A stretch of DNA of 12,765 bases from an uncultured Planctomycetaceae bacterium. GTDB taxonomy: Bacteria > Planctomycetota > Planctomycetia > Planctomycetales > Planctomycetaceae. Made by a program: the position numbers and the translations under genes. Shown piece after piece: positions 605 to 10,995 of the stretch; the stretch's first letter is position 1; each line of letters opens with the position of its first letter. The notes beneath the pieces are model-generated. The model did no database searches. It saw only the letters and a list, made by a program, of their open reading frames with translations, and was not told the DNA's origin. The DNA is taken from the NCBI GenBank assembly GCA_903921605.1, contig CAIXQV010000741.1:1-12765 (forward strand), written 5' to 3'.

Positions 605-1957
605 ATGACAAGTGCCTCAACGCAAGTGCATGCACCAACTCGCGGCGCCCCCGGAGAGCTGAAAGTTATTCAGGATGCCACCTGTACCTTCTGCGGTTGT
701 GTGTGCGACGATATCGATCTGTCAGTTAAAGATGATCACATTATCGAAGCGAAACGAGCCTGCGTTCTTGGCAAAGCGTGGTTTCTGAATCATAGCGTTG
801 AAGATCGGCCCAGTTGCACAATTGAAGGGCGCCCCGCGACGCTCGAAGAAGGCTATGACCGCGCCGCTCAGATTCTGACGAACGGTAAGAATCCGATCAT
901 TTATGGTCTCAGCGATTCTCCCTGCGAAGCACAGCGCGTCGCGGTGAGTATTGCGGACTGGATCAATGGCACGATCGACACGACAACCAGTGTCTGTCAC
1001 GGTCCTTCCGGCATGGCGTTCCAGGGAGTTGGTGAAGTCACCTGTTCTCTGGGCGAAGTTACCAATCGCGGTGATATGATTATCTTCTGGGGCGCGAATC
1101 CGGCGGAAAGTCATCCTCGCCATTTCACTCGCTATAGCCTGATGCCCAAAGGCATGTTTGTTCCGAATGGTCGCAAGGATCGAACTTGTGTGATCATTGA
1201 TGTCCGCAAGACGAAAAGCGCGAAGGCGGCTGACATCTTTATTCAGATCAAACCCAAACGTGACTTCGAGGCACTGTGGACATTGCGAGCGATGGCCAAA
1301 GGGATCGAGCTCGATCCGGAAGTTGTGCAGCGAGAAACAGGCGTTGAATTCTCCGTGTGGCAGGATTTGATGGACCGCATGAAGGCCTGTAAGTTTGGCG
1401 TCATCTTCTTTGGGATGGGCCTGACGATGACTCGCGGCAAGCATGCCAACACAGAAGCATTGCTGGCTCTGACGCGCGACATGAATGCTCATACGCGGTT
1501 CGTCGCCAAAGCCAATCGTGGCCACGGCAACGTTTCTGGTGCGGACAATGTCGTCTCGTGGCGCACGGGATATCCGTTTGGAGTGAATCATGCTCGCGGA
1601 TACCCGCGATTTAATCCCGGGGAGTATACGACGTCGGATACTCTGGCGAATCATGAAGCTGACTGCGGGATGATGATAGCCTGCGATCCGATGGCCAATT
1701 TTTCTCAGCCTGCTCGAGAACATCTGGCAACGATCCCGTACATCGCGCTCGACACGAAAGAAACTCCGACGACTCGCGCGGCGGCGGTGGCATTTACGGT
1801 GGCCACATACGGAATTAATACGGGAGGAACGGTGTATCGCATGGATGACGTGCCAATTCCGCTTCGACCGGCGTTTCCTTCTCCCCATCCGAGTGATTAC
1901 GACGTTCTGACCGCGATTGAAGAACGAGTGAAACTGATCAACGGTGTGACGGGTTAG
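605..1957 (+). CDS. fhcB: Formyltransferase/hydrolase complex subunit B (FmdB/FwdB-like)
   Basis: This 450-aa protein is the bacterial homologue of formylmethanofuran dehydrogenase subunit B, a member of the molybdopterin oxidoreductase superfamily. In bacteria the Fhc complex converts formyl-H4MPT plus water to formate and H4MPT through a formylated methanofuran-like carrier. The B subunit is thought to be structural rather than redox-active. Visible features: a Cys cluster CTFCGCVCDD at residues 27-36 and Cys53 (C27-x2-C30-x3-C34-x18-C53), which has the spacing of the 4Fe-4S motif of the archaeal enzyme. The motif SVCHGPS at 129-135 places Cys131 where archaeal FwdB has its metal-ligand Cys or Sec. 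Downstream are IIFWGANPAESHPRH and a Rossmann-like region. Length is normal for the family. The start ATG at 605 has only a weak AAAGAG upstream. It is the first gene of an fhcB-fhcA-fhcD cluster, 102 nt before fhcA. Confidence 0.95.
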   Translation: MTSASTQVHAPTRGAPGELKVIQDATCTFCGCVCDDIDLSVKDDHIIEAKRACVLGKAWFLNHSVEDRPSCTIEGRPATLEEGYDRAAQILTNGKNPIIYGLSDSPCEAQRVAVSIADWINGTIDTTTSVCHGPSGMAFQGVGEVTCSLGEVTNRGDMIIFWGANPAESHPRHFTRYSLMPKGMFVPNGRKDRTCVIIDVRKTKSAKAADIFIQIKPKRDFEALWTLRAMAKGIELDPEVVQRETGVEFSVWQDLMDRMKACKFGVIFFGMGLTMTRGKHANTEALLALTRDMNAHTRFVAKANRGHGNVSGADNVVSWRTGYPFGVNHARGYPRFNPGEYTTSDTLANHEADCGMMIACDPMANFSQPAREHLATIPYIALDTKETPTTRAAAVAFTVATYGINTGGTVYRMDDVPIPLRPAFPSPHPSDYDVLTAIEERVKLINGVTG

Positions 1958-2003
1958 TTTGAAGTTTACAACAGCTCATGTGACCGTTGTTCCTCCGACC
2001 GCT

Positions 2004-2023
2004 CTGGAGTGCTTTGACTCCAG
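2004..2023. repeat. Short perfect palindrome between fhcB and fhcA
   Basis: CTGGAGT (2004-2010) and ACTCCAG (2017-2023) form a perfect 7-bp stem around a 6-nt loop. It lies mid-way in the 102-nt fhcB-fhcA gap. No T-run follows, so it is not a typical intrinsic terminator; the operon probably reads through. I recall similar 'ctggagtgctttgactccag' units scattered in planctomycete intergenic regions, which would make this a REP-like element, but a genome search is needed to establish that. Confidence 0.6.
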
Positions 2024-2059
2024 CCCCGCTCCCCATAAGTTCTCTTAAGCGCACGGCCA

Positions 2060-3724
2060 ATGACATCACCCGACTACATCAAGATCTCACAGGGAACGGT
2101 GTATGATCCCGCCAATGGTATCGATGGCGAAGTTCGTGATCTTTGGGTCCTGAACGGTCGCATCGTCGAAGCACCAACCGATTCCACGATCCGTCCTTCA
2201 CGCACGATTGATGCGGCCGGATTGGTCGTCATGCCCGGCGGCATTGATATGCATTGCCATATTGCCGGGCCTAAGGTGAATGTCGCTCGCAAAATGAGGC
2301 CTGAGGAAAAGCGTCGCGGCGAACAGATGCCGCGTACGAATGTCACTCACAGCGGCACGATGGGAAGCGTGCCCAGCACATTCGCGACCGGCTACAAATA
2401 CGCCGCTCTGGGGTATACGACAGCGTTCGATGCGGCTGTTCCTCCTTTGGGAGCTCGCCATGCTCACGAGGAATTTGAAGACACGCCGTGCCTCGACAAG
2501 GGTTTCTATGTTCTGATGGGGAATAATCACTACGTGATGCAATCCCTCCAGCGCAATGAACCACAGAAGTTAAAAGCCTTTATCGGCTGGTTGTTGGCCG
2601 CCAGCAAAGGGTTTGCTCCGAAGCTGGTGAATCCCGGCGGTGTGGAAGTCTGGAAGTCGAAGCAGGCCGGAAATGTCAGCGGGCTGGATTCGGATATTGA
2701 TCATTTCCATGTGACGCCGCGTCAGATTATTAGTGGAGTCGCTCAGGCTGCGGCTGAACTGGGACTGCCTCACCCGGTGCATATTCACTGCAATAATCTG
2801 GGGATGCCAGGCAACTGGGAAACGACTCTGGAAACGATGCGAGCTCTCGAAGGGCGTCGTGGTCATATAACTCACATTCAGTTTCACAGCTATGGCGGCG
2901 GGAACGGCGACGAGAATACCTTCAACAGCAAAGTGCTGCCGCTGGTCGATTATGTGAATTCTCATCCGAATATCACGGTCGACGTCGGCCAGGTGCTGTT
3001 TGGAGAGACGACCAGTATGACGGGCGACGGGCCGCTGGGATATTTTCTGTCGAAGGTCTACGGTGGCAAATGGTTCAGCAGTGACACGGAGATGGAATCC
3101 GGCTGTGGAATTACTCCGATCAAGTATCGCAATAAGTCCCTGGTGCATTCTCTGCAGTGGGCGATCGGGCTCGAATGGTACCTGCTGGTGAATGATCCCT
3201 GGCGAGTCGTCATGAGTACTGATCATCCGAACGGCGGATCGTTCCTGGCTTATCCTCAGATTATTCGTTTTCTGATGGATCGCACTTATCGTCGCGACGT
3301 GCTGAAGACATGTCCGCCCGAAATTCTGCAGCGATCATCACTGTGGGATATCGAACGACAGTATACGCTGAACGAGATCGCAATTATTACGCGAGCAGGC
3401 CCCGCGCGGATTCTGGGACTGAAAGACAAAGGTCATCTTGGTCCTGGCGCAGATGCCGATATTACGATTTATACGCCGCATGAAAACAAAGAGATCATGT
3501 TCGAAATGCCGCGCGTGGTGATCAAATCCGGCGAGGTACTTGTCGAACAGGGAGAGATCCGCAAAACTCTGATCGGGAAAACTCTGCACGTCAGTCCCAA
3601 CTACGATATTGAAGTCGAACCGGACATTAAGGAATGGTTCGAAAAGTACTATTCGATTCAGTGGAGAAACTACCCGGTAGATCTGAGCTATCTCAGTGAA
3701 TCGTGTGTGATCCCGACGAAGTGA
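2060..3724 (+). CDS. fhcA: Formyltransferase/hydrolase complex subunit A (FmdA/FwdA-like amidohydrolase)
   Basis: This 554-aa cytoplasmic protein is a metal-dependent amidohydrolase of the FwdA/FhcA family. It hydrolyses the formyl group from the formylated methanofuran-type carrier to give formate. Metal-centre residues can be followed through the chain: HxH at H65/H67 in GGIDMHCHIAG; K188 in APKLVNPGG, the likely carboxylated bridging lysine; H243 in PVHIHCNN; H272 and/or H276 in HITHIQFHSYGG; and D388 in MSTDHPNGG, the likely catalytic aspartate. These assignments are by motif position, not by alignment. A typical urease-like composite domain follows near the C-terminus (LGPGADADITIY, VVIKSGEVLVEQGEI). 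Length matches the family. The ATG at 2060 has no clear Shine-Dalgarno. It sits between fhcB and fhcD on the same strand, with which it forms a complex. Confidence 0.96.
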   Translation: MTSPDYIKISQGTVYDPANGIDGEVRDLWVLNGRIVEAPTDSTIRPSRTIDAAGLVVMPGGIDMHCHIAGPKVNVARKMRPEEKRRGEQMPRTNVTHSGTMGSVPSTFATGYKYAALGYTTAFDAAVPPLGARHAHEEFEDTPCLDKGFYVLMGNNHYVMQSLQRNEPQKLKAFIGWLLAASKGFAPKLVNPGGVEVWKSKQAGNVSGLDSDIDHFHVTPRQIISGVAQAAAELGLPHPVHIHCNNLGMPGNWETTLETMRALEGRRGHITHIQFHSYGGGNGDENTFNSKVLPLVDYVNSHPNITVDVGQVLFGETTSMTGDGPLGYFLSKVYGGKWFSSDTEMESGCGITPIKYRNKSLVHSLQWAIGLEWYLLVNDPWRVVMSTDHPNGGSFLAYPQIIRFLMDRTYRRDVLKTCPPEILQRSSLWDIERQYTLNEIAIITRAGPARILGLKDKGHLGPGADADITIYTPHENKEIMFEMPRVVIKSGEVLVEQGEIRKTLIGKTLHVSPNYDIEVEPDIKEWFEKYYSIQWRNYPVDLSYLSESCVIPTK

Positions 3725-3787
3725 TTTTGCTCAGTTCCTGATGCCAGATTTCTGCATTGGGCCAGTTCAAGCCGTGCCGTGTGTGTT

Positions 3788-3823
3788 TAGTAGGGTGGGA
3801 CCAGCGGAGCGCCGGCCCACCGC
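3788..3823. repeat. REP-like GC-rich hairpin between fhcA and fhcD
   Basis: GGTGGG at 3794-3799 pairs with CCCACC at 3816-3821. The inner CCAGCG/CGCCGG segments extend the stem with one bulge and one mismatch. The sequence around it, of the form TAGGGTGGGACCAGCG...CCGGCCCACC, matches a palindrome I remember as abundant between genes of planctomycetes. It is in the 138-nt gap between fhcA and fhcD and lacks a downstream T-run. A role in mRNA stability or processing of the polycistron is possible but unproven. Confidence 0.65.
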
Positions 3824-3824
3824 A

Positions 3825-3854
3825 ACTGTCAACGAAGAGACTGTCAACAAAGAG
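3825..3854. repeat. Contiguous 15-bp tandem duplication upstream of fhcD
   Basis: ACTGTCAACGAAGAG (3825-3839) is directly followed by ACTGTCAACAAAGAG (3840-3854), two 15-bp units with one mismatch. The second unit ends 8 nt before the fhcD ATG and supplies the AAAGAG that may serve as a weak ribosome-binding site. The pair abuts the REP-like hairpin at 3788-3823. Confidence 0.75.
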
Positions 3855-3862
3855 TGTGATTA

Positions 3863-4780
3863 ATGTCTGAGGTTTCAGCAGCATCTTTGCAACTGCATGG
3901 CGTCGAGATTATCGATACGTTTGCAGAAGCCTTTCCCATCAAGGCCGCTCGGTTGATCATTACCGCCGACAGTCTCAAGTGGGCCGTCACCGGCGCGACT
4001 GTGTTGTGTGGCAATGCAACCAGTGTGATCGCCTGTGATGTGGAAGCGGCTATTGAGCGAACGCTCACGGCTGAGGAAACTCCGGACATGCGTCCGGGTG
4101 TTTCTGTCCTGGTCTTTGGCTTCGGCACCGAAGCCCTTGGGAAAGCACTGCAGGGACGCGTGGGCCAGTGTATTCTGACTTGCCCAACCACAGCCTGTTA
4201 CAACGGCATTCTGGATTGTCCAAAGGAAAAACAGATCCGCATCGGAGGCGCTATTCGCTACTTCGGCGACGGTTTTCAGGTTGCCAAGAAGTTTGATCAT
4301 CGACGTTTCTGGCGTATTCCGACGATGGACGGTGAGTTCGTCTGCGAGGATTATTTCGGAACCGTAACCGGAGTCGCCGGTGGCAACTTACTGATCTGCG
4401 GTACAGATTCGTCATCAGCGTTGCTGGCAACTGAAGCGGCCGTCGAAGCAATTGGAAAAGGCACTGATGTCGCGTTGCCGTTTCCTGGCGGGATTGTTCG
4501 TTCGGGCAGCAAAGTGGGGTCTCGCTATCCCAAGTTGAAAGCCAGCACAAACGATGCCTATTGCCCAACATTGCGAGGCGTCACAAAGACTGAGTTGCCA
4601 AAGGATTGTCAGGCGGTTTATGAAATCGTGATCGATGGTCTCTCCTTTGAAGCCGTGCAGTCCGCAATGAAACGTGGGCTCCATGCGGCGGCAGCGTCGA
4701 AGAATGTTCTTCGTATCACCGCGGGCAACTACGGCGGAAAACTTGGCAAGCATCATTTCCATTTGAAGGATCTGCTCTAG
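3863..4780 (+). CDS. fhcD: Formyltransferase subunit D (formylmethanofuran:H4MPT formyltransferase, Ftr-like)
   Basis: This 305-aa protein is the Ftr homologue that transfers the formyl group between tetrahydromethanopterin and the methanofuran-type carrier, in the cytoplasm within the Fhc complex. Recognisable Ftr features are the N-terminal LHGVEIIDTFAEAFPIKAAR (residues 11-30), ILTCPTTACYNG (104-115), the central GEFVCEDYFGTVTGVAGGN (157-175), ALPFPGGIVRSGSKVGSRYP (204-223) and the C-terminal TAGNYGGKLGKHHFHL (286-301). The length is close to that of archaeal Ftr. The ATG at 3863 is preceded by a poor AAAGAG. It is the last fhc gene here. The next gene 143 nt on is unrelated, and no FhcC follows. 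Confidence 0.96.
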   Translation: MSEVSAASLQLHGVEIIDTFAEAFPIKAARLIITADSLKWAVTGATVLCGNATSVIACDVEAAIERTLTAEETPDMRPGVSVLVFGFGTEALGKALQGRVGQCILTCPTTACYNGILDCPKEKQIRIGGAIRYFGDGFQVAKKFDHRRFWRIPTMDGEFVCEDYFGTVTGVAGGNLLICGTDSSSALLATEAAVEAIGKGTDVALPFPGGIVRSGSKVGSRYPKLKASTNDAYCPTLRGVTKTELPKDCQAVYEIVIDGLSFEAVQSAMKRGLHAAAASKNVLRITAGNYGGKLGKHHFHLKDLL

Positions 4781-5561: not shown

Positions 5562-6965
5562 ATGCGCCTCGCAAAATCATTCTCCGTTTTTGGCGTTCTT
5601 GTCCTTGTGGGAATCGCCGCGTATCAGACTCGTGATTCATGGTCGAAACCGCTAAAGCAGAAGAGCGTTACGCAGGCTCAGAAGGAGCAGGCTGTTCCGC
5701 CGATTCAGGAAGCGAAAACGCTTAAGATGAGCGAGCAGGCCCGAAAGAACCTCGGGCTGGTTTCACGGCCGACTAAGCCACAGGCCTACTGGCGAACGAT
5801 CGAAGTGCCGGGTGAGATCGTGGATCGGCCGGGCTATTCGGATCGAGGTGTCACGTCGCCAGCGGTCGGAGTCGTCACGGAGGTTCATGCGTTTCCTGGC
5901 GACACTGTGAAGCCGGGGGATCGTCTCTTTACTCTGCGACTCTTCAGTGAGTACCTGCAGAATACTCAGTCAGAACTATTCAAGGCGACTCGGGAAATTC
6001 AGCTTATTACTGAGCAACACGCGAGGCTTGAAGGTCTCGTGAAATCAGGCGGAGTGCCTGAATCTCGGCTCATTGAGCTCGACAATCAACTTCGACGACA
6101 GAAGGCCTTGATTCAGTCGTATCAACAGGATCTGCTCACACGTGGCCTGAATCCTGAGCAGATCAGGAGTGTTGCCGACGGAACGTTCGTTTCAACGATT
6201 GAAGTTGTCGCTCCTGCTGTGATGGATCACAAGAAGAATTCGTCTGAGATTCAGCCTGTGGTGTTTCACGCCACAGGAAGCAATGTCGATGGACTGGCCT
6301 ATGAGGTGCAGGAGTTAAACGTCGAATTGGGTCAGCAGGTTCAGGCTGGTCAACTGCTGTCGACATTGGCCAATCACCACGCCTTGTTCATTGAAGGTCA
6401 TGCGTTTAAGCGAGAGGCCTCGTTTCTGGCGAAGGCCGCTGAAAACAACTGGCCAATTCGATGCAGCTTTGCAGAGGATGATCAGGTCGACTGGCCTGCA
6501 TTTGATCAAACACTTGAGATCAGGCACCTCGCGAATGCCGTCAACTCCGAAACTCGAACGTTCAACTTCTTCATTCCGCTCTTGAATCAGTCGCGAGCGT
6601 ACGACAAAGACAACCAGACGTTCATTGTCTGGCGGTTTCGCCCGGGCCAGCGTGTGCGGCTGCAGGTGCCCGTCGAAGAATTAAAGAATGTGCTTGTCCT
6701 GCCATCCGCAGCCATCGTGCGCGAGGGACCGGAGGCCTACGTATTTCAGCAGAATGGTGATTTGTTCAATCGACTCCCCGTGCACGTGCTTCACGAAGAC
6801 CGACTCCAGACTGTGCTGGCCAATGACGGCAGCGTGAAAGCCGGGCTGTATCTGGCACAAAGCGCAGCGGCTTCACTGAATCGAGTCCTGAAGGCTCAGG
6901 CGGCCAGCGGTATTCGTGCGGACGTTCATGTGCACGCTGATGGAACGGTGCATGCGGCCCATTGA
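5562..6965 (+). CDS. RND efflux periplasmic adaptor (CzcB/CusB-like)
   Basis: This 467-aa membrane-fusion protein would link the inner-membrane RND permease to an outer-membrane channel. Visible regions are: an N-terminal membrane anchor or signal (residues 8-21); the first half of the barrel-sandwich (lipoyl) domain, VTSPAVGVVTEVHAFPGDTV (97-116) with VKPGDRLFTL; an alpha-helical hairpin about 127-192; the second lipoyl half, ELNVELGQQVQAGQLLSTLA (251-270); beta-barrel sequence around RFRPGQRVRLQVPVEELKNV (358-377); and a membrane-proximal domain from about 378. The C-terminus is HVHADGTVHAAH, a His-rich tail that may bind metal. The ATG at 5562 has AAGGTG about 6 nt upstream. The substrate cannot be read from sequence; the His-rich neighbours favour a metal cation. 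The stop codon is immediately followed by a heptamer-repeat array. Confidence 0.93.
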   Translation: MRLAKSFSVFGVLVLVGIAAYQTRDSWSKPLKQKSVTQAQKEQAVPPIQEAKTLKMSEQARKNLGLVSRPTKPQAYWRTIEVPGEIVDRPGYSDRGVTSPAVGVVTEVHAFPGDTVKPGDRLFTLRLFSEYLQNTQSELFKATREIQLITEQHARLEGLVKSGGVPESRLIELDNQLRRQKALIQSYQQDLLTRGLNPEQIRSVADGTFVSTIEVVAPAVMDHKKNSSEIQPVVFHATGSNVDGLAYEVQELNVELGQQVQAGQLLSTLANHHALFIEGHAFKREASFLAKAAENNWPIRCSFAEDDQVDWPAFDQTLEIRHLANAVNSETRTFNFFIPLLNQSRAYDKDNQTFIVWRFRPGQRVRLQVPVEELKNVLVLPSAAIVREGPEAYVFQQNGDLFNRLPVHVLHEDRLQTVLANDGSVKAGLYLAQSAAASLNRVLKAQAASGIRADVHVHADGTVHAAH

Positions 6966-7003
6966 GAATTGCCGATTGGAGATTGCCGATCGAAGATTGG
7001 AAA
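6966..7003. repeat. Left heptanucleotide-repeat array flanking the four-helix gene
   Basis: Directly after the adaptor stop codon the sequence divides into 7-nt units: AATTGCC, GATTGGA, GATTGCC, GATCGAA, GATTGGA, then AA. Positions 6970-6985 are a perfect 16-nt inverted match to 7400-7415. Positions 6970-6992 are a perfect 23-nt inverted match to 9063-9085 inside the permease gene. The array and its partner at 7388-7425 bracket the four-helix gene in inverted orientation and could pair in RNA. Confidence 0.9.
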
Positions 7004-7030
7004 GAGCAAAGATGAGATGGAGATTGAGCG

Positions 7031-7384
7031 ATGGACAACGTTGAATTGAAGAGTCGGACGAAGCAATTTGCGTTGCGGGCTATGAAACTGGTGGTGGCTT
7101 TACCAGTGGACGCTGTTGGAAAGACCATTGGGGCGCAGCTCGTTCGAAGTGCGACATCTGTGGGAGCCAATTATCGAGCGGCCTGTCGAGGTCGATCGAA
7201 GGCGGAATTCATAGCGAAGCTGCAAATTGTCGTCGAAGAAGCAGATGAATGCTGCTATTGGCTGGAGCTGATCATCGAAGGGGCCCTCTTGCCCGAACCC
7301 AAAGTGAACCCGCTCCTCGACGAAGCCAATCAGCTTACCGCCATCATGGTCGCGTCTCGAAAATCCGCCCAAAGCCGCCCCTAA
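7031..7384 (+). CDS. Four-helix-bundle protein, S23/IVP family (23S rRNA intervening-sequence type)
   Basis: This 117-aa protein belongs to the S23/IVP four-helix-bundle family: LRAMKLVVALPVDAVGKTIG (helix 1-2), QLVRSATSVGANYRAACRG (36-54), KAEFIAKLQIVVEEADECCY (57-76) with WLELIIEG following, and a last helix from about 92. Members occur as ORFs inside 23S rRNA intervening sequences, as free-standing genes, and as Avd of diversity-generating retroelements; their biochemical role is poorly defined, with nucleic-acid binding proposed. The family call is firm and the function is not. GGAG at 7019-7022 lies 8 nt before the ATG. It is wedged between adaptor and permease genes that are normally neighbours and is bracketed by inverted heptamer arrays, so I infer it arrived as an insertion. 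No reverse transcriptase or variable repeat is in the window. Confidence 0.93.
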   Translation: MDNVELKSRTKQFALRAMKLVVALPVDAVGKTIGAQLVRSATSVGANYRAACRGRSKAEFIAKLQIVVEEADECCYWLELIIEGALLPEPKVNPLLDEANQLTAIMVASRKSAQSRP

Positions 7385-7387
7385 CTG

Positions 7388-7425
7388 TTTTCCAATCGCC
7401 AATCTCCAATCGGCAATCTTCAATG
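7388..7425. repeat. Right heptanucleotide-repeat array, ending at the permease start codon
   Basis: Read on the minus strand this is CATTGAA, GATTGCC, GATTGGA, GATTGGC, GATTGGA, AAA: five 7-nt units in register. It is inverted relative to the left array at 6966-7003, and the two align along their length with one 7-nt-class indel. It shares a 16-nt direct match (7400-7415 with 9070-9085) with the element inside the permease gene. The outermost unit contains the CAATG that supplies the permease ATG at 7423, so the repeat also occupies the position of the ribosome-binding site. Confidence 0.9.
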
Positions 7426-10400
7426 CTAAATTCCGTCATCCGTTTTGCACTTCGATATCGCATGCTGGTTCTTGTCATCAGCATGGCGCTGATGGTGTAT
7501 GGGTCGTATCTGGCCACTCAGATGCCGATTGATGTCTTTCCGGATCTCGACCGGCCACGCGTGATCATCATCACGGAATGTCCGGGACTCGCGACGGAAG
7601 AAGTCGAGACGCTTGTTACGCAGCCCATCGAAATTGCCCTGCTGGGTGCCAGCGGGGTACAGGCTGTCCGTAGTCAATCGACAGCCGGACTGAACGTGAT
7701 CTATATCGAGTTCGACTGGAACACGGATATTCGGGCGGCTCGGCAAACAGTTCAGGAACGACTCACCACACTGGGGAGCGTTCTTCCCGAGGGCATTCTG
7801 CCGCAGATGACGCCACCTGCGTCGATCATGGGGCAGATCGTGGTTGCGGGTCTTTACCGACAACAAGGACCGACCGGCGGTGAACTGTTTCCGATTGAGC
7901 AAACCGACCTGATGGCTGAATTGGTTGTCGCTGACCCCACGGACAAAGACGGCGTCACGCAACAGCCTCAGGTTTTTGCCTGGAAGCCGACAGATCGTCA
8001 CAAGGTTAGTTCATGGACATCTGTGGCCATTGAGCGAGTTGACTGGCATGCGACAGAGCGATCGAGCGACGTGCATGGTACTGAACGGGATCGAGTGGCT
8101 ACGATTACGATCAATGGCAAGCCACATGAGGTTGAGTTCCCCTCTGCGGCGTCTCGCCAGATGGCTCTGCGAACGACGGCCGACTGGGTTGTCCGGCCAC
8201 GAATTCTGAAAGTCACGGGCGTCGCAGAAGCGTTTTTGCTGGGCGGCGACAAGAAACAGTACCAGGTTTTGATCGATCCAGCGGCCCTCATTGAGTACGA
8301 CGTAACTCTGCAGGAAGTGGAAGAAGCGCTCAGGCAGAGCAACATCAATGCAAGCGGTGGATTCGCGGTTCACGGAGAAACAGAACGTCCTATTCGCGTG
8401 CTGGGGCGACTCGGTCCGGATGCCTGGCGCGTTCTTGAAGACTTGCGGAAGATTCCTGTGATGAACCATCCTGAACGCTCCGTATTGCTCGGTCAGGTCG
8501 CACAGGTGGTTGAAGGGCCACAGTTCAAGCGTGGCGATGGCAGCGTGAATGGCCATCCGGGAGTTGTCTTCACGATCGTCAAACAGCCACACGTGGATAC
8601 TCGTTCGCTGACGGATAGTCTCGAAAAGGCATTCGTGGAGGCGGAAGCATCGCTTCCCGCCGACATAGTGATCAACTCCGAACTGTTCCGCCTGAAGAAC
8701 TTCATCGATCGCGGCATCTTCAATGTGGGCGAAGCCCTTGTGATTGGAGCTGTCCTGGTTGTCATCATCCTGTTTCTGTTCCTGCTCAATTTCCGCACAA
8801 CCTTTATTACGCTCACCGCGATCCCCTTGTCGCTTGTCATCACGACTCTGGTGTTTCGAATTTGGGGATACATCACAGGAACGCATCTCTCCATCAATGT
8901 CATGACACTGGGTGGCATCGCCGTGGCGATGGGAGAACTCGTCGACGATGCGATTGTTGACGTCGAAAATATCTTTCGTCGGCTGAAGGAGAATAATTGT
9001 CGACCGGAGATTGCCGATTGCCGAATGGAAGGCAGTTCGTCAGATCTTCAATCTCCAGTCTCCGATCGGCAATCTCCAATCGGCATTCGAAAATCTTCCC
9101 TTCTCGTCGTCTATGAAGCGAGCAAAGAAATTCGCAGTGCCATCGTGTTTGGCACGGCTGTCGTAATTCTGGTCTTCCTGCCACTTTTTGCGTTGTCCGG
9201 CGTGGAGGGTCGGCTGTTTGCTCCACTCGGCGTGGCCTACATCGTTTCGATTCTGGCATCACTCATTGTGTCACTGACGGTAACGCCCGTCCTTTCGTGG
9301 TATTTGCTGCCGCAGTCAAAGGCGACTCACGCGGAACATGATGGCGTGCTACTGCGACTATTCAAATGGGCCGCCGGATATCTGATCCGCCTGAGCATCG
9401 CTCACCCGCTTGCTTTGATGGCGTTGACGTGGCTGATGGTGGCTTATGCTGGCTGGGAACTGTCTCAACTGGGGCGCAACTTTCTTCCACAATTCGACGA
9501 AGGCAGCGTGCAGATCAATCTGACGTTGCCGCCCGGTTCTTCACTGGATGCTTCAAACCAGGTCTCGGGAGTCATCGATCGCAAGCTGCAGCAGATGCAG
9601 AAATCCGACAAGAACCCGGACGGGCCGATTCTGCATTTTGTGAGGCGAACCGGCCGAGCAGAAATGGACGAGCATGCTTCGCCCGTGAATACCGGTGAGT
9701 ATATTCTCAGCATGAACCCGGACATTCAGGCTCATCGCGAAGAAATCCTTAAGAAGTTCCTCGACGAACTCCGCGAAGAAGCTCCCGGAGTGGATGTGGA
9801 GGTTGAGCAGCCTCTGGCGCATCTTATCAGTCACATGGTTTCAGGCGTGTATGCTCAGATTGCGATCAAGATCCACGGCGATGATCTCGACACGTTGCAA
9901 CAACTTTCGGAGCAGGTCAAACAGACACTTCAGTCGGTACCCGGGGTAACGCCACCAATCGTCGAGCCAATTCGCCAGACGGAGGAGCTGCATATCCGCC
10001 TGCGACCGGATGACCTCGCTTTTCATGGTGTTACAAGAGCATACGTCGCGCAAGTCGTGCAGACAGCATTGCAGGGCGAAGTCGTTTCACAGGTGCTGGA
10101 AGGTCAGCGACGATTCGATCTTCTGGTACGACTCGAAGAAAGTTATCGCACGGATTACGCCAACATCGGACGACTGCGAATTGATCTGCCTAACAACCGC
10201 GGGCAAATCGAACTCCGGGAACTGGCGGATATCGGCGAAGGTTCAGGAGCCAACGCGGTCAATCGCGAGAACGCTCGCCGCCGGATCGTGATTCGCTGCA
10301 ACACTCAGGACCGCGACCTTGCGAGTGCCGTCGCAGAGATTCAGCAGCGAGTTCAAATGAACGTGACCATGCCGGAAGGCTACTTTGTCGAGTACGGCGG

Positions 10401-10995
10401 ACAGTTTGAAAGTCAGCAAAGTGCGACTCGCACAATCGTCGTGCTGGCTGGAATCTCTGTCATTGGAATGTTTGTCGTACTGATGATTCTGTTTCCTTCG
10501 GTTCGTGTGGTACTGCAGATCCTGAATGCACTTCCGACGGCATTCATCGGCGGAGTGCTGGCATTGGTGATCACTCAGCAGACGCTGACCGTTGCCAGTC
10601 TGGTAGGATTCATTTCGCTGGGTGGCATCGCAGTACGCAACGGGATTCTGCTGGTGACCCACTACTTTCATCTGATGAAGGAAGAGGGCGAAGATTTTAC
10701 TGAGCAAATGGTCGTGCGAGGAAGCCTCGAACGTCTGGCACCTGTGTTAATGACAGCTCTGACCGCAGGAATTGGCCTCGTGCCGCTTGTGCTTGGCGGT
10801 CAGGAACCCGGCCGCGAGATTCTTTATCCAGTCGCCACTGTCATTCTCGGTGGGCTGGTAACGTCCACGTTCTGTGAGTTCCTGATTCATCCTGGATTAT
10901 TCTGGCGTTTCAGCGGTCAGGATGCGGTCAAGCTTGCGAAGATGAGTGATGCGGTGGATGAGTTTGGTGAAGGAGAAGTAAGTGATTGCCTGTAG
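7423..10995 (+). CDS. RND heavy-metal-type efflux permease (CzcA/CusA-like) with in-frame repeat insertion
   Basis: This 1190-aa inner-membrane proton-driven antiporter is the pump of the tripartite system. The start at 7423 gives MLNSVIRFALRYRMLVLVIS, the usual beginning of this clade; the frame is open further left but that part overlaps the four-helix gene and is not family-like. Landmarks: TM1 at about 12-30; PIDVFPDLDRPRVIII; SIMGQIVVAGL (134-144); TTADWVVRPRILKVTGVAEAFLLGG from 251; TM2-TM4 at about 434-512; and GELVDDAIVDVENIFRRL, with D508/D509/D513/E515 where HME-RND pumps have proton-relay acids. Then come TM5-TM6 (FLPLFALSGVEGRLFAPLG), the second porter half (FLPQFDEGSVQINLTLPPGS) and a C-terminal membrane half with GGIAVRNGILLVTHYF. 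It is about 120-150 residues longer than typical relatives. One extra block is at about 147-246 in the first porter domain; a second at about 526-559 is encoded by heptamer repeats. No Shine-Dalgarno precedes the ATG. The metal substrate is not determinable. Confidence 0.94.
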   Translation: MLNSVIRFALRYRMLVLVISMALMVYGSYLATQMPIDVFPDLDRPRVIIITECPGLATEEVETLVTQPIEIALLGASGVQAVRSQSTAGLNVIYIEFDWNTDIRAARQTVQERLTTLGSVLPEGILPQMTPPASIMGQIVVAGLYRQQGPTGGELFPIEQTDLMAELVVADPTDKDGVTQQPQVFAWKPTDRHKVSSWTSVAIERVDWHATERSSDVHGTERDRVATITINGKPHEVEFPSAASRQMALRTTADWVVRPRILKVTGVAEAFLLGGDKKQYQVLIDPAALIEYDVTLQEVEEALRQSNINASGGFAVHGETERPIRVLGRLGPDAWRVLEDLRKIPVMNHPERSVLLGQVAQVVEGPQFKRGDGSVNGHPGVVFTIVKQPHVDTRSLTDSLEKAFVEAEASLPADIVINSELFRLKNFIDRGIFNVGEALVIGAVLVVIILFLFLLNFRTTFITLTAIPLSLVITTLVFRIWGYITGTHLSINVMTLGGIAVAMGELVDDAIVDVENIFRRLKENNCRPEIADCRMEGSSSDLQSPVSDRQSPIGIRKSSLLVVYEASKEIRSAIVFGTAVVILVFLPLFALSGVEGRLFAPLGVAYIVSILASLIVSLTVTPVLSWYLLPQSKATHAEHDGVLLRLFKWAAGYLIRLSIAHPLALMALTWLMVAYAGWELSQLGRNFLPQFDEGSVQINLTLPPGSSLDASNQVSGVIDRKLQQMQKSDKNPDGPILHFVRRTGRAEMDEHASPVNTGEYILSMNPDIQAHREEILKKFLDELREEAPGVDVEVEQPLAHLISHMVSGVYAQIAIKIHGDDLDTLQQLSEQVKQTLQSVPGVTPPIVEPIRQTEELHIRLRPDDLAFHGVTRAYVAQVVQTALQGEVVSQVLEGQRRFDLLVRLEESYRTDYANIGRLRIDLPNNRGQIELRELADIGEGSGANAVNRENARRRIVIRCNTQDRDLASAVAEIQQRVQMNVTMPEGYFVEYGGQFESQQSATRTIVVLAGISVIGMFVVLMILFPSVRVVLQILNALPTAFIGGVLALVITQQTLTVASLVGFISLGGIAVRNGILLVTHYFHLMKEEGEDFTEQMVVRGSLERLAPVLMTALTAGIGLVPLVLGGQEPGREILYPVATVILGGLVTSTFCEFLIHPGLFWRFSGQDAVKLAKMSDAVDEFGEGEVSDCL
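9003..9096. repeat. In-frame palindromic heptamer-repeat element inside the permease gene
   Basis: The left arm (about 9003-9030) reads ACCGGA, GATTGCC, GATTGCC, GAATGGA. The right arm, read on the minus strand from 9090 to 9045, gives GAATGCC, GATTGGA, GATTGCC, GATCGGA, GACTGGA, GATTGAA. Positions 9006-9018 and 9065-9077 form a perfect 13-bp stem. Orientation of the arms matches the pair that brackets the four-helix gene, but no gene lies between them. The element is translated as about residues 526-559, including SSDLQSPVSDRQSPIGIRKS, between the TM4 helix end (ENIFRRLKENN) and VVYEASKEIRSAIVFGTA, which are close together in ordinary relatives. No stop or frameshift results. Confidence 0.9.

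Follow-up and report, generated by a model that had tools for sequence, protein, structure and literature searches.

A candidate mobile cassette formed by an S23/IVP gene and two inverted heptamer arrays in a planctomycete metal-pump operon

Between the adaptor and permease genes of a heavy-metal pump, a 12,765-nt stretch of DNA from an uncultured Planctomycetaceae bacterium (hereafter, the window) carries a 457-nt block, 6966-7422, that is probably a mobile cassette. In this interpretation, an S23/IVP gene and its two inverted array ends insert as a unit into operon gaps, and the protein likely binds its own ends. Mobility is indicated by sequence comparison: empty and filled sites exist, gene and ends are exchanged as a unit, copies that are 83-90% identical are found at unrelated sites, and S23-less derivatives are detected.

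The block and its arms

The block separates the stop codon of the adaptor gene (TGA, 6963-6965) from the start codon of the permease gene (ATG, 7423-7425). The features of the locus are as follows:

5562..6965, + strand: RND periplasmic adaptor (CzcB/CusB-like), left host gene; NCBIfam adaptor models match, below their cut-offs
6960..7003, + strand: left arm, a GATTGCC/GATTGGA-type heptamer array, inverted partner of 7389-7425, starting at the adaptor stop codon; arm score 23.5
7031..7384, + strand: S23/IVP four-helix-bundle gene, 117 aa plus stop; PF05635, TIGR02436, PDB 2rld_A
7389..7425, - strand: right arm, an inverted heptamer array (CCAATCN/GGCAATC) finishing at the permease ATG
7423..10995, + strand: CusA/CzcA heavy-metal RND permease, right host gene; TIGR00914, 704.3 bits (cut-off 701.45); PF00873
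8998..9087, + strand: S23-less inverted GATT-heptamer hairpin, in frame within the permease gene

The initial annotation had described a 117-aa S23 gene between opposed heptamer arrays running from the adaptor stop to the permease ATG, and both its coordinates and the S23/IVP identity were confirmed. The protein scores 55.9 bits against PF05635 (cut-off 33.8) and 80.5 against TIGR02436 (cut-off 24), and its relative in the PDB is 2rld_A (57.6 bits). The gene looks to be under purifying selection: dN/dS lies between 0.03 and 0.16 in eight of nine pairs (the remaining one was not computable), with dS above 1 in most, and the pair formed by the window and locus L001 gives a dN/dS of 0.13 at a dS of 0.21. 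When the sense-strand ORFs of the block were scanned, S23 was the only gene found and no recombination enzyme was recognised. No Rfam family matches the window at the gathering threshold, and the block lies between the adaptor and permease genes, not inside a 23S rRNA gene. The metal pump adjoins a C1-transfer cluster (605-4780) that encodes formylmethanofuran dehydrogenase subunits B and A and formylmethanofuran-H4MPT formyltransferase.

According to TRF, the left array (6968-6999) is made of GATTGCC, GATTGGA and GATCGAA units and the right array (7391-7424) of CCAATCN and GGCAATC units, both with a period of 7 and a super-period of 14 nt. The cleanest long inverted pair joins 6960-6990 with 7395-7425 (31 nt, 90% complementary), and its outer ends reach into both coding sequences, over the final codon and stop of the adaptor gene (CATTGA) on one side and the start codon of the permease gene (TCAATG) on the other. 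An inverted pair of 43 nt is 74% complementary. An arm score was obtained by local alignment of the left flank against the reverse complement of the right flank. The window scores 23.5. For 1,500 placements made at random with similar geometry, in loci longer than 9 kb, the median was 8 and the 99th percentile 12; their maximum of 170 was a chance match to some large inverted repeat. Like the 23S rRNA intervening sequences (IVS), the block has an S23 ORF between complementary ends.

Empty sites, filled sites and exchange

A genome scan with the adaptor yielded 31 loci, and both genes were readable in 30 of them. The initial annotation had assumed that adaptor and permease genes are normally adjacent, and had proposed a search for syntenic loci lacking the 457-bp block. 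Both ideas were borne out, as 18 of the 30 junctions contain just a spacer of 12-17 nt (e.g., TGAGGAAAGCACG ahead of the ATG). An S23 cassette is present in ten junctions (L001-L007, L009, L020 and L027); that of L020 has an internal deletion, and the S23 gene of L007 has an internal stop. The L008 junction is a relic of 148 nt with arm sequence and an S23 remnant only, and the L011 junction has an 82-nt spacer without recognisable S23. On the adaptor and permease tree, cassette presence undergoes four changes if L008 is counted as present and L011 as empty. L027 and L009 are placed among empty relatives, with weak support for the fork of L009. Loci L001, L003 and L009 are closely Planctomycetaceae-like despite contig titles that read Candidatus Kuenenia stuttgartiensis, and the titles may be wrong.

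Two arm types, GATTGCC-like and ATTTTGG-like, are found at the czc site. The host-gene tree requires five changes of arm type and the S23 tree a single one; therefore, gene and arms move as a unit. Judged by the host genes, L002 is the sister of the window (98), with 90.9% nucleotide identity in the adaptor gene, but their S23 genes are only 66.4% identical and their arms are of different type. In contrast, the S23 genes of the window and L001 are 93.4% identical, and the AU test on S23 data rejects a clade made of the window, L001 and L002 (p = 0.0003).

A rather unlikely explanation for such swaps is that one ancient insertion was followed by ordinary homologous recombination via the conserved pump genes that flank the cassette. 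The flanks are similar enough, with 64-91% nucleotide identity between the adaptor gene of the window and those of other occupied loci and 84% between the permease starts of the window and L002, and recombination through them could by itself account for the exchanges at the czc site. It leaves unexplained, however, that the S23 genes next to czcA-like starts in L038 and L064 belong to other subfamilies (16-21% identity), that copies lie at unrelated sites in genome G026, and that cassettes occupy the Nostoc plasmid junctions described below.

On those plasmids, the empty and filled states of two junctions can be compared almost to the base, and insertion of a mobile cassette is the interpretation that we favour. 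The two junctions are neighbours within one Nostoc operon; L175 has its cassette in the first and L178 in the second, and therefore each record shows the empty site of the other. In the first junction (J1; L175 filled, L178 empty) the insert has 417 nt including the arms, with no net loss; in the second (J2; L178 filled, L175 empty) it has 506 nt including the arms and lies between TA and ATG. Target duplication is absent from J1, and J2 has none or 3 bp depending on placement, so that the constant duplication typical of DDE-type insertion sequences was not found at these two junctions. A third junction (J3; L173 versus L250) aligned less cleanly and was left uncounted. The same operon is found on further plasmids: the match spans the whole stretch in H69-H71 and about two thirds of it in H73-H77, none of which has a listed four-helix feature.

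In genome G026, three copies (L158, L161 and L162) that are 83-90% identical lie at unrelated sites. The blastn match stops about 90 nt upstream of S23 in all three, at or just outside the left arm, and extends 150-170 nt downstream in L161 and L162; L158 is cut by the contig end. Both neighbours are shared by 72 locus pairs, 17 of which have S23 identities below 0.45; examples are L038 and L064, and planctomycete L111 versus Planktothrix L185. Of the traits by which mobile elements are recognised, the same unit at different sites and the empty counterparts are found here, and a recombination enzyme of its own, or an identified one, is not.

Arrays without S23 occur too, mostly as short inverted hairpins. 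An in-frame insert like that at 8998-9087 of the window is found at the same place in the permeases of L002, L003 and L020, and is missing from the 22 remaining permeases of an alignment of 26 (shorter sequences were left out). A survey with one array pattern in five genomes gave 79 matches, and 20 regions were fetched; most two-unit matches look like chance. Among the longer arrays surveyed, all S23-less inverted pairs lie in genome G002, where eight inverted GATT pairs form hairpins of about 100 nt in seven regions (L230, L232-L236 and L238). The array of L237 is one-sided, and that of L241 runs into the contig end. Several of the G002 hairpins adjoin a GAGCGGCA...TGCCGCTCGC repeat.

Arms across phyla and their relation to the protein

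The presence of arms at other S23 genes was examined in 165 genes with usable flanks, from planctomycete loci and, in 29 cases, from plasmids of Cyanobacteriota, Gemmatimonadota, Pseudomonadota, Chloroflexota, Bacteroidota, Spirochaetota and Bacillota. Not every S23 place known from the scans was included, and low-scoring fragments were mostly left out. The seed profile was made without L043, L047, L059 and L061, and another step without L047 and L061. The 146 matches of the seed profile were reduced to 139 after removing identical ones and to 137 with usable flanks; later sets comprised 150 of 153 loci (mismatch analysis) and 165 of 168 (phylum-wide arm scoring), and flank windows were altered in the former for C-terminally extended ORFs and in the latter for the 15 plasmid loci added last.

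An arm score of at least 12.5, just over the random 99th percentile, was reached by 144 of the 165 S23 genes, including 26 of the 29 on plasmids and at least one in each of the eight phyla. The expectation that inverted arrays would accompany other S23 genes was thus upheld. Two outcomes had been named beforehand as contrary to the cassette proposal, namely that orthologous loci in distant relatives would all have S23 but no arrays, or that arrays would show no genome-wide association with S23. Neither was seen, although some arrays do occur without S23, as described above. Twenty-one S23 genes fall below the threshold, and the arrays of L172 and L195 look to be in the same orientation. Small-gene controls from planctomycete genomes of the same set never reached 12.5: none of 28 Cupin_2 genes (maximum 12.0) nor of 27 SSB genes (maximum 9.5) did so, these 55 being what was left of 60 after five were dropped because of frame length or short flanks. 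The unit period is clear in 151 of the 165 loci, and is 7 in 130 of them, 8 in 13, 6 in seven and 9 in one. G exceeds C in the left arm at 112 of 119 loci.

It is highly improbable, in view of these data, that S23 is a resident operon gene and that the arrays have nothing to do with it, being slippage repeats or sites for a regulator. Heptamer repeats have indeed been reported in several bacteria, and PMC4692102 and PMC4679880 do not use the term S23 in their main texts (nor does PMC2700814). Against this view, the two arms of one locus match each other (median score 18.5) but arms of different loci do not (median 8, 99th percentile 14.5), the control genes lack arms, and empty czcB-czcA sites exist. 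The idea of a resident gene beside unrelated repeats is contradicted by these observations together with the 144 armed S23 genes, and was discarded.

The sample contains variants of several kinds. An S23 subfamily with 6-nt GTACTC units is formed by L158, L161, L162, L043, L056, L076 and L078, and past the arms the outer ends of some of its copies look like a TTCTGGC...GCCAGAA inverted repeat. The S23 proteins of L041, L042, L054, L073 and L074 have a long C-terminal extension, and the extended frame of L042 seems partly to read through array-like sequence. L147 harbors two tandem S23 genes about 420 nt apart.

If arms and protein belong together, one may ask whether the repeat follows the protein. 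On the S23 tree, the unit period changes 11 times, compared with a mean of 17.6 (minimum 16) after shuffling, and the GATT motif changes eight times, compared with 18.2 (minimum 15). When the other czc-site copies are omitted, the motif still changes eight times, against a shuffled mean of 13.6 (minimum 11). Protein identity correlates with arm similarity (r = 0.296; 0 of 2000 permutations) over 10,128 pairs kept after 168 pairs with related flanks were dropped. The correlation is, however, likewise expected if the arms just travel with the gene, and such joint travel explains part of the link between repeat and protein.

Predictions made in advance gave a mixed picture. GATT units in RTK-type loci were clear in four of nine cases (one with reversed polarity) and partial in one, and an 8-nt period was found in three of six (the others had 7, 7 and 9). 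A strict rule leading from protein to period was discarded, as both predictions held only partly. A cross-phylum nearest-neighbour test of the arms was weak (mean percentile 0.615, p = 0.035, n = 26), and a 6-mer S23 subfamily query on plasmids gave no matches. Taken together, the link between repeat and protein is real in phylogeny, without amounting to a strict code. The earlier suggestion that the protein recognises the repeat gains indirect support, in that both the period and the motif of the units cluster on the S23 tree.

Possible mechanism and relatives

A tentative mechanism for the cassette can be outlined. An S23 oligomer would contact successive array units, thereby setting their period at 6-8 nt and determining some of their sequence, and would bring the two array ends together; a separate partner would do the cutting and joining. 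A Y1 transposase was considered for the latter role and set aside, since it is near-ubiquitous and does not discriminate (28 of 30 S23-bearing genomes versus 6 of 9 S23-free genomes). It is likely that, at the DNA or cDNA level, one end serves as the model from which the other is renewed, as is suggested by mismatches that show no G-U excess: 97 G-U-compatible, 103 A-C and 215 other mismatches, along with 3,230 matches, were counted in 119 loci. In L149, L135 and L101 the arms have long complementary stretches that are not heptamer repeats, with hardly any repeat in L149, which suggests that copying can transfer an entire end to the opposite side. As for the choice of site, the neighbours are co-directional in 23 of the 24 annotated plasmid loci with both in view, and S23 runs with both of them in 19; therefore, the cassette favours, or survives best in, operon gaps.

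A different model, which we consider doubtful, is that the arms act as RNA: they would pair in the polycistronic transcript, RNase III would cut the stem, and the czcB and czcA messages would be separated or differentially stabilised. The window arms do pair in the minimum free energy and centroid structures predicted for a 476-nt RNA, which could form one long hairpin and has a stability z of -2.34, with three of 100 shuffles at least as stable. Besides, PMC4990558 describes RNase III cleavage of the Coxiella 23S IVS and heptamers within the arm of that element, and S23 has the orientation of both neighbours in those 19 plasmid loci. On the other hand, mismatches that keep G-U pairing are no commoner than A-C mismatches, and S23 is antisense to both neighbours in four of the 24 plasmid loci. 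Selection on pairs of an RNA stem was not supported, for lack of a wobble-pair excess. The initial annotation had seen in the block the architecture of the 23S IVS transferred to a protein-coding operon, perhaps as a small mobile cassette. The empty and filled sites and the arms at 144 of 165 S23 genes agree with that proposal, but the absence of G-U excess does not favour arms kept for RNA pairing.

One may also imagine that a resident reverse transcriptase copies the S23-bound cassette RNA and inserts the cDNA in trans, in a DGR- or intron-like form of retromobility. This seems unlikely to us, even if PMC10053308 describes a likeness in sequence and fold between PF05635 and the DGR accessory protein Avd, and even if the arms give the impression of having been copied and not mended at single pairs. 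A PF00078 match is missing in 12 of 30 S23-bearing planctomycete genomes, whose completeness is not stated, and past or other enzymes might have acted. A resident reverse transcriptase was discarded as a requirement for that reason. No reverse-transcriptase domain was recognised among the nine window proteins scanned.

The mobile cassette that we propose recalls several known systems. Short hairpins, non-autonomous copies and little or no target duplication characterise REP/RAYT, IS200/IS605 hairpin-ended elements and MITEs. Unlike REP/RAYT and IS200/IS605, the cassette has no recognised Y1 transposase, and its ends are arrays of 6-8 nt units.

The closest resemblance is to the 23S rRNA IVS. 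In Coxiella, as described in PMC4990558, the IVS has 428-444 nt, an S23 ORF inside, complementary ends, and heptamers upstream of the ORF. The distribution of such sequences is sporadic, according to a passage of PMC11270868, and mobility has been suspected. Similar size, an internal S23 ORF, complementary ends and heptamers are shared with the window cassette; however, cassettes of its class occupy gaps between protein genes, at many sites and in several copies per genome, their unit sequence varies with the locus, and S23-less derivatives exist.

Paired, oppositely oriented 7-nt arrays at many places are also known in Xanthomonas and Geobacter metallireducens, where PMC4692102 and PMC2700814 discuss them in terms of G-quadruplex formation or regulator sites; heptamer arrays are likewise described in PMC4679880. 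These pairs may possibly be S23-less derivatives. Among the matches listed in the open-access literature, no report was found that links S23 genes to matched inverted arrays outside rRNA, and an earlier description may exist elsewhere.

In our reading, these elements make up a class of small mobile cassettes that is widespread and whose known relative is the 23S rRNA IVS. A broader proposal, for which we see roughly even chances, is that S23 cassettes are distinct, multi-phylum minimal mobile elements whose protein reads the ends by period and motif in a co-evolving repeat code, and that 23S IVS, S23 genes of defence operons and orphan heptamers are members or remnants. What S23/IVP proteins do, and what the 23S IVS is, have so far been unclear, and the appearance of S23 in screens for cas-locus and DGR association is unexplained. 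If S23 genes encode the protein part of a mobile cassette with cognate ends, the family would gain a function open to testing, namely binding to the array that flanks the gene; the heptamer repeats of several phyla would gain an origin; and guilt-by-association calls near S23 (in CRISPR, other defence operons and metal efflux) would need correcting.

The cas loci are a case in point. S23/IVP genes between cas6 and cas4 and between cmr2 and cmr3 are reported as a function found in cas loci in PMC3936711 and PMC10910872, and 18 S23 genes are counted in cas loci in the former. The protein family is the same, and the position is again between operon genes. Flanking arrays accompany cas-operon copies of S23, inverted in L176 and L177 and in the same orientation in L172, and therefore these copies are likely cassettes that landed there. 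S23 genes within or beside annotations of CRISPR-Cas, DISARM/MmeI, type I restriction or DNA methylase are found in L172, L176, L177, L185, L189, L191 and L192.
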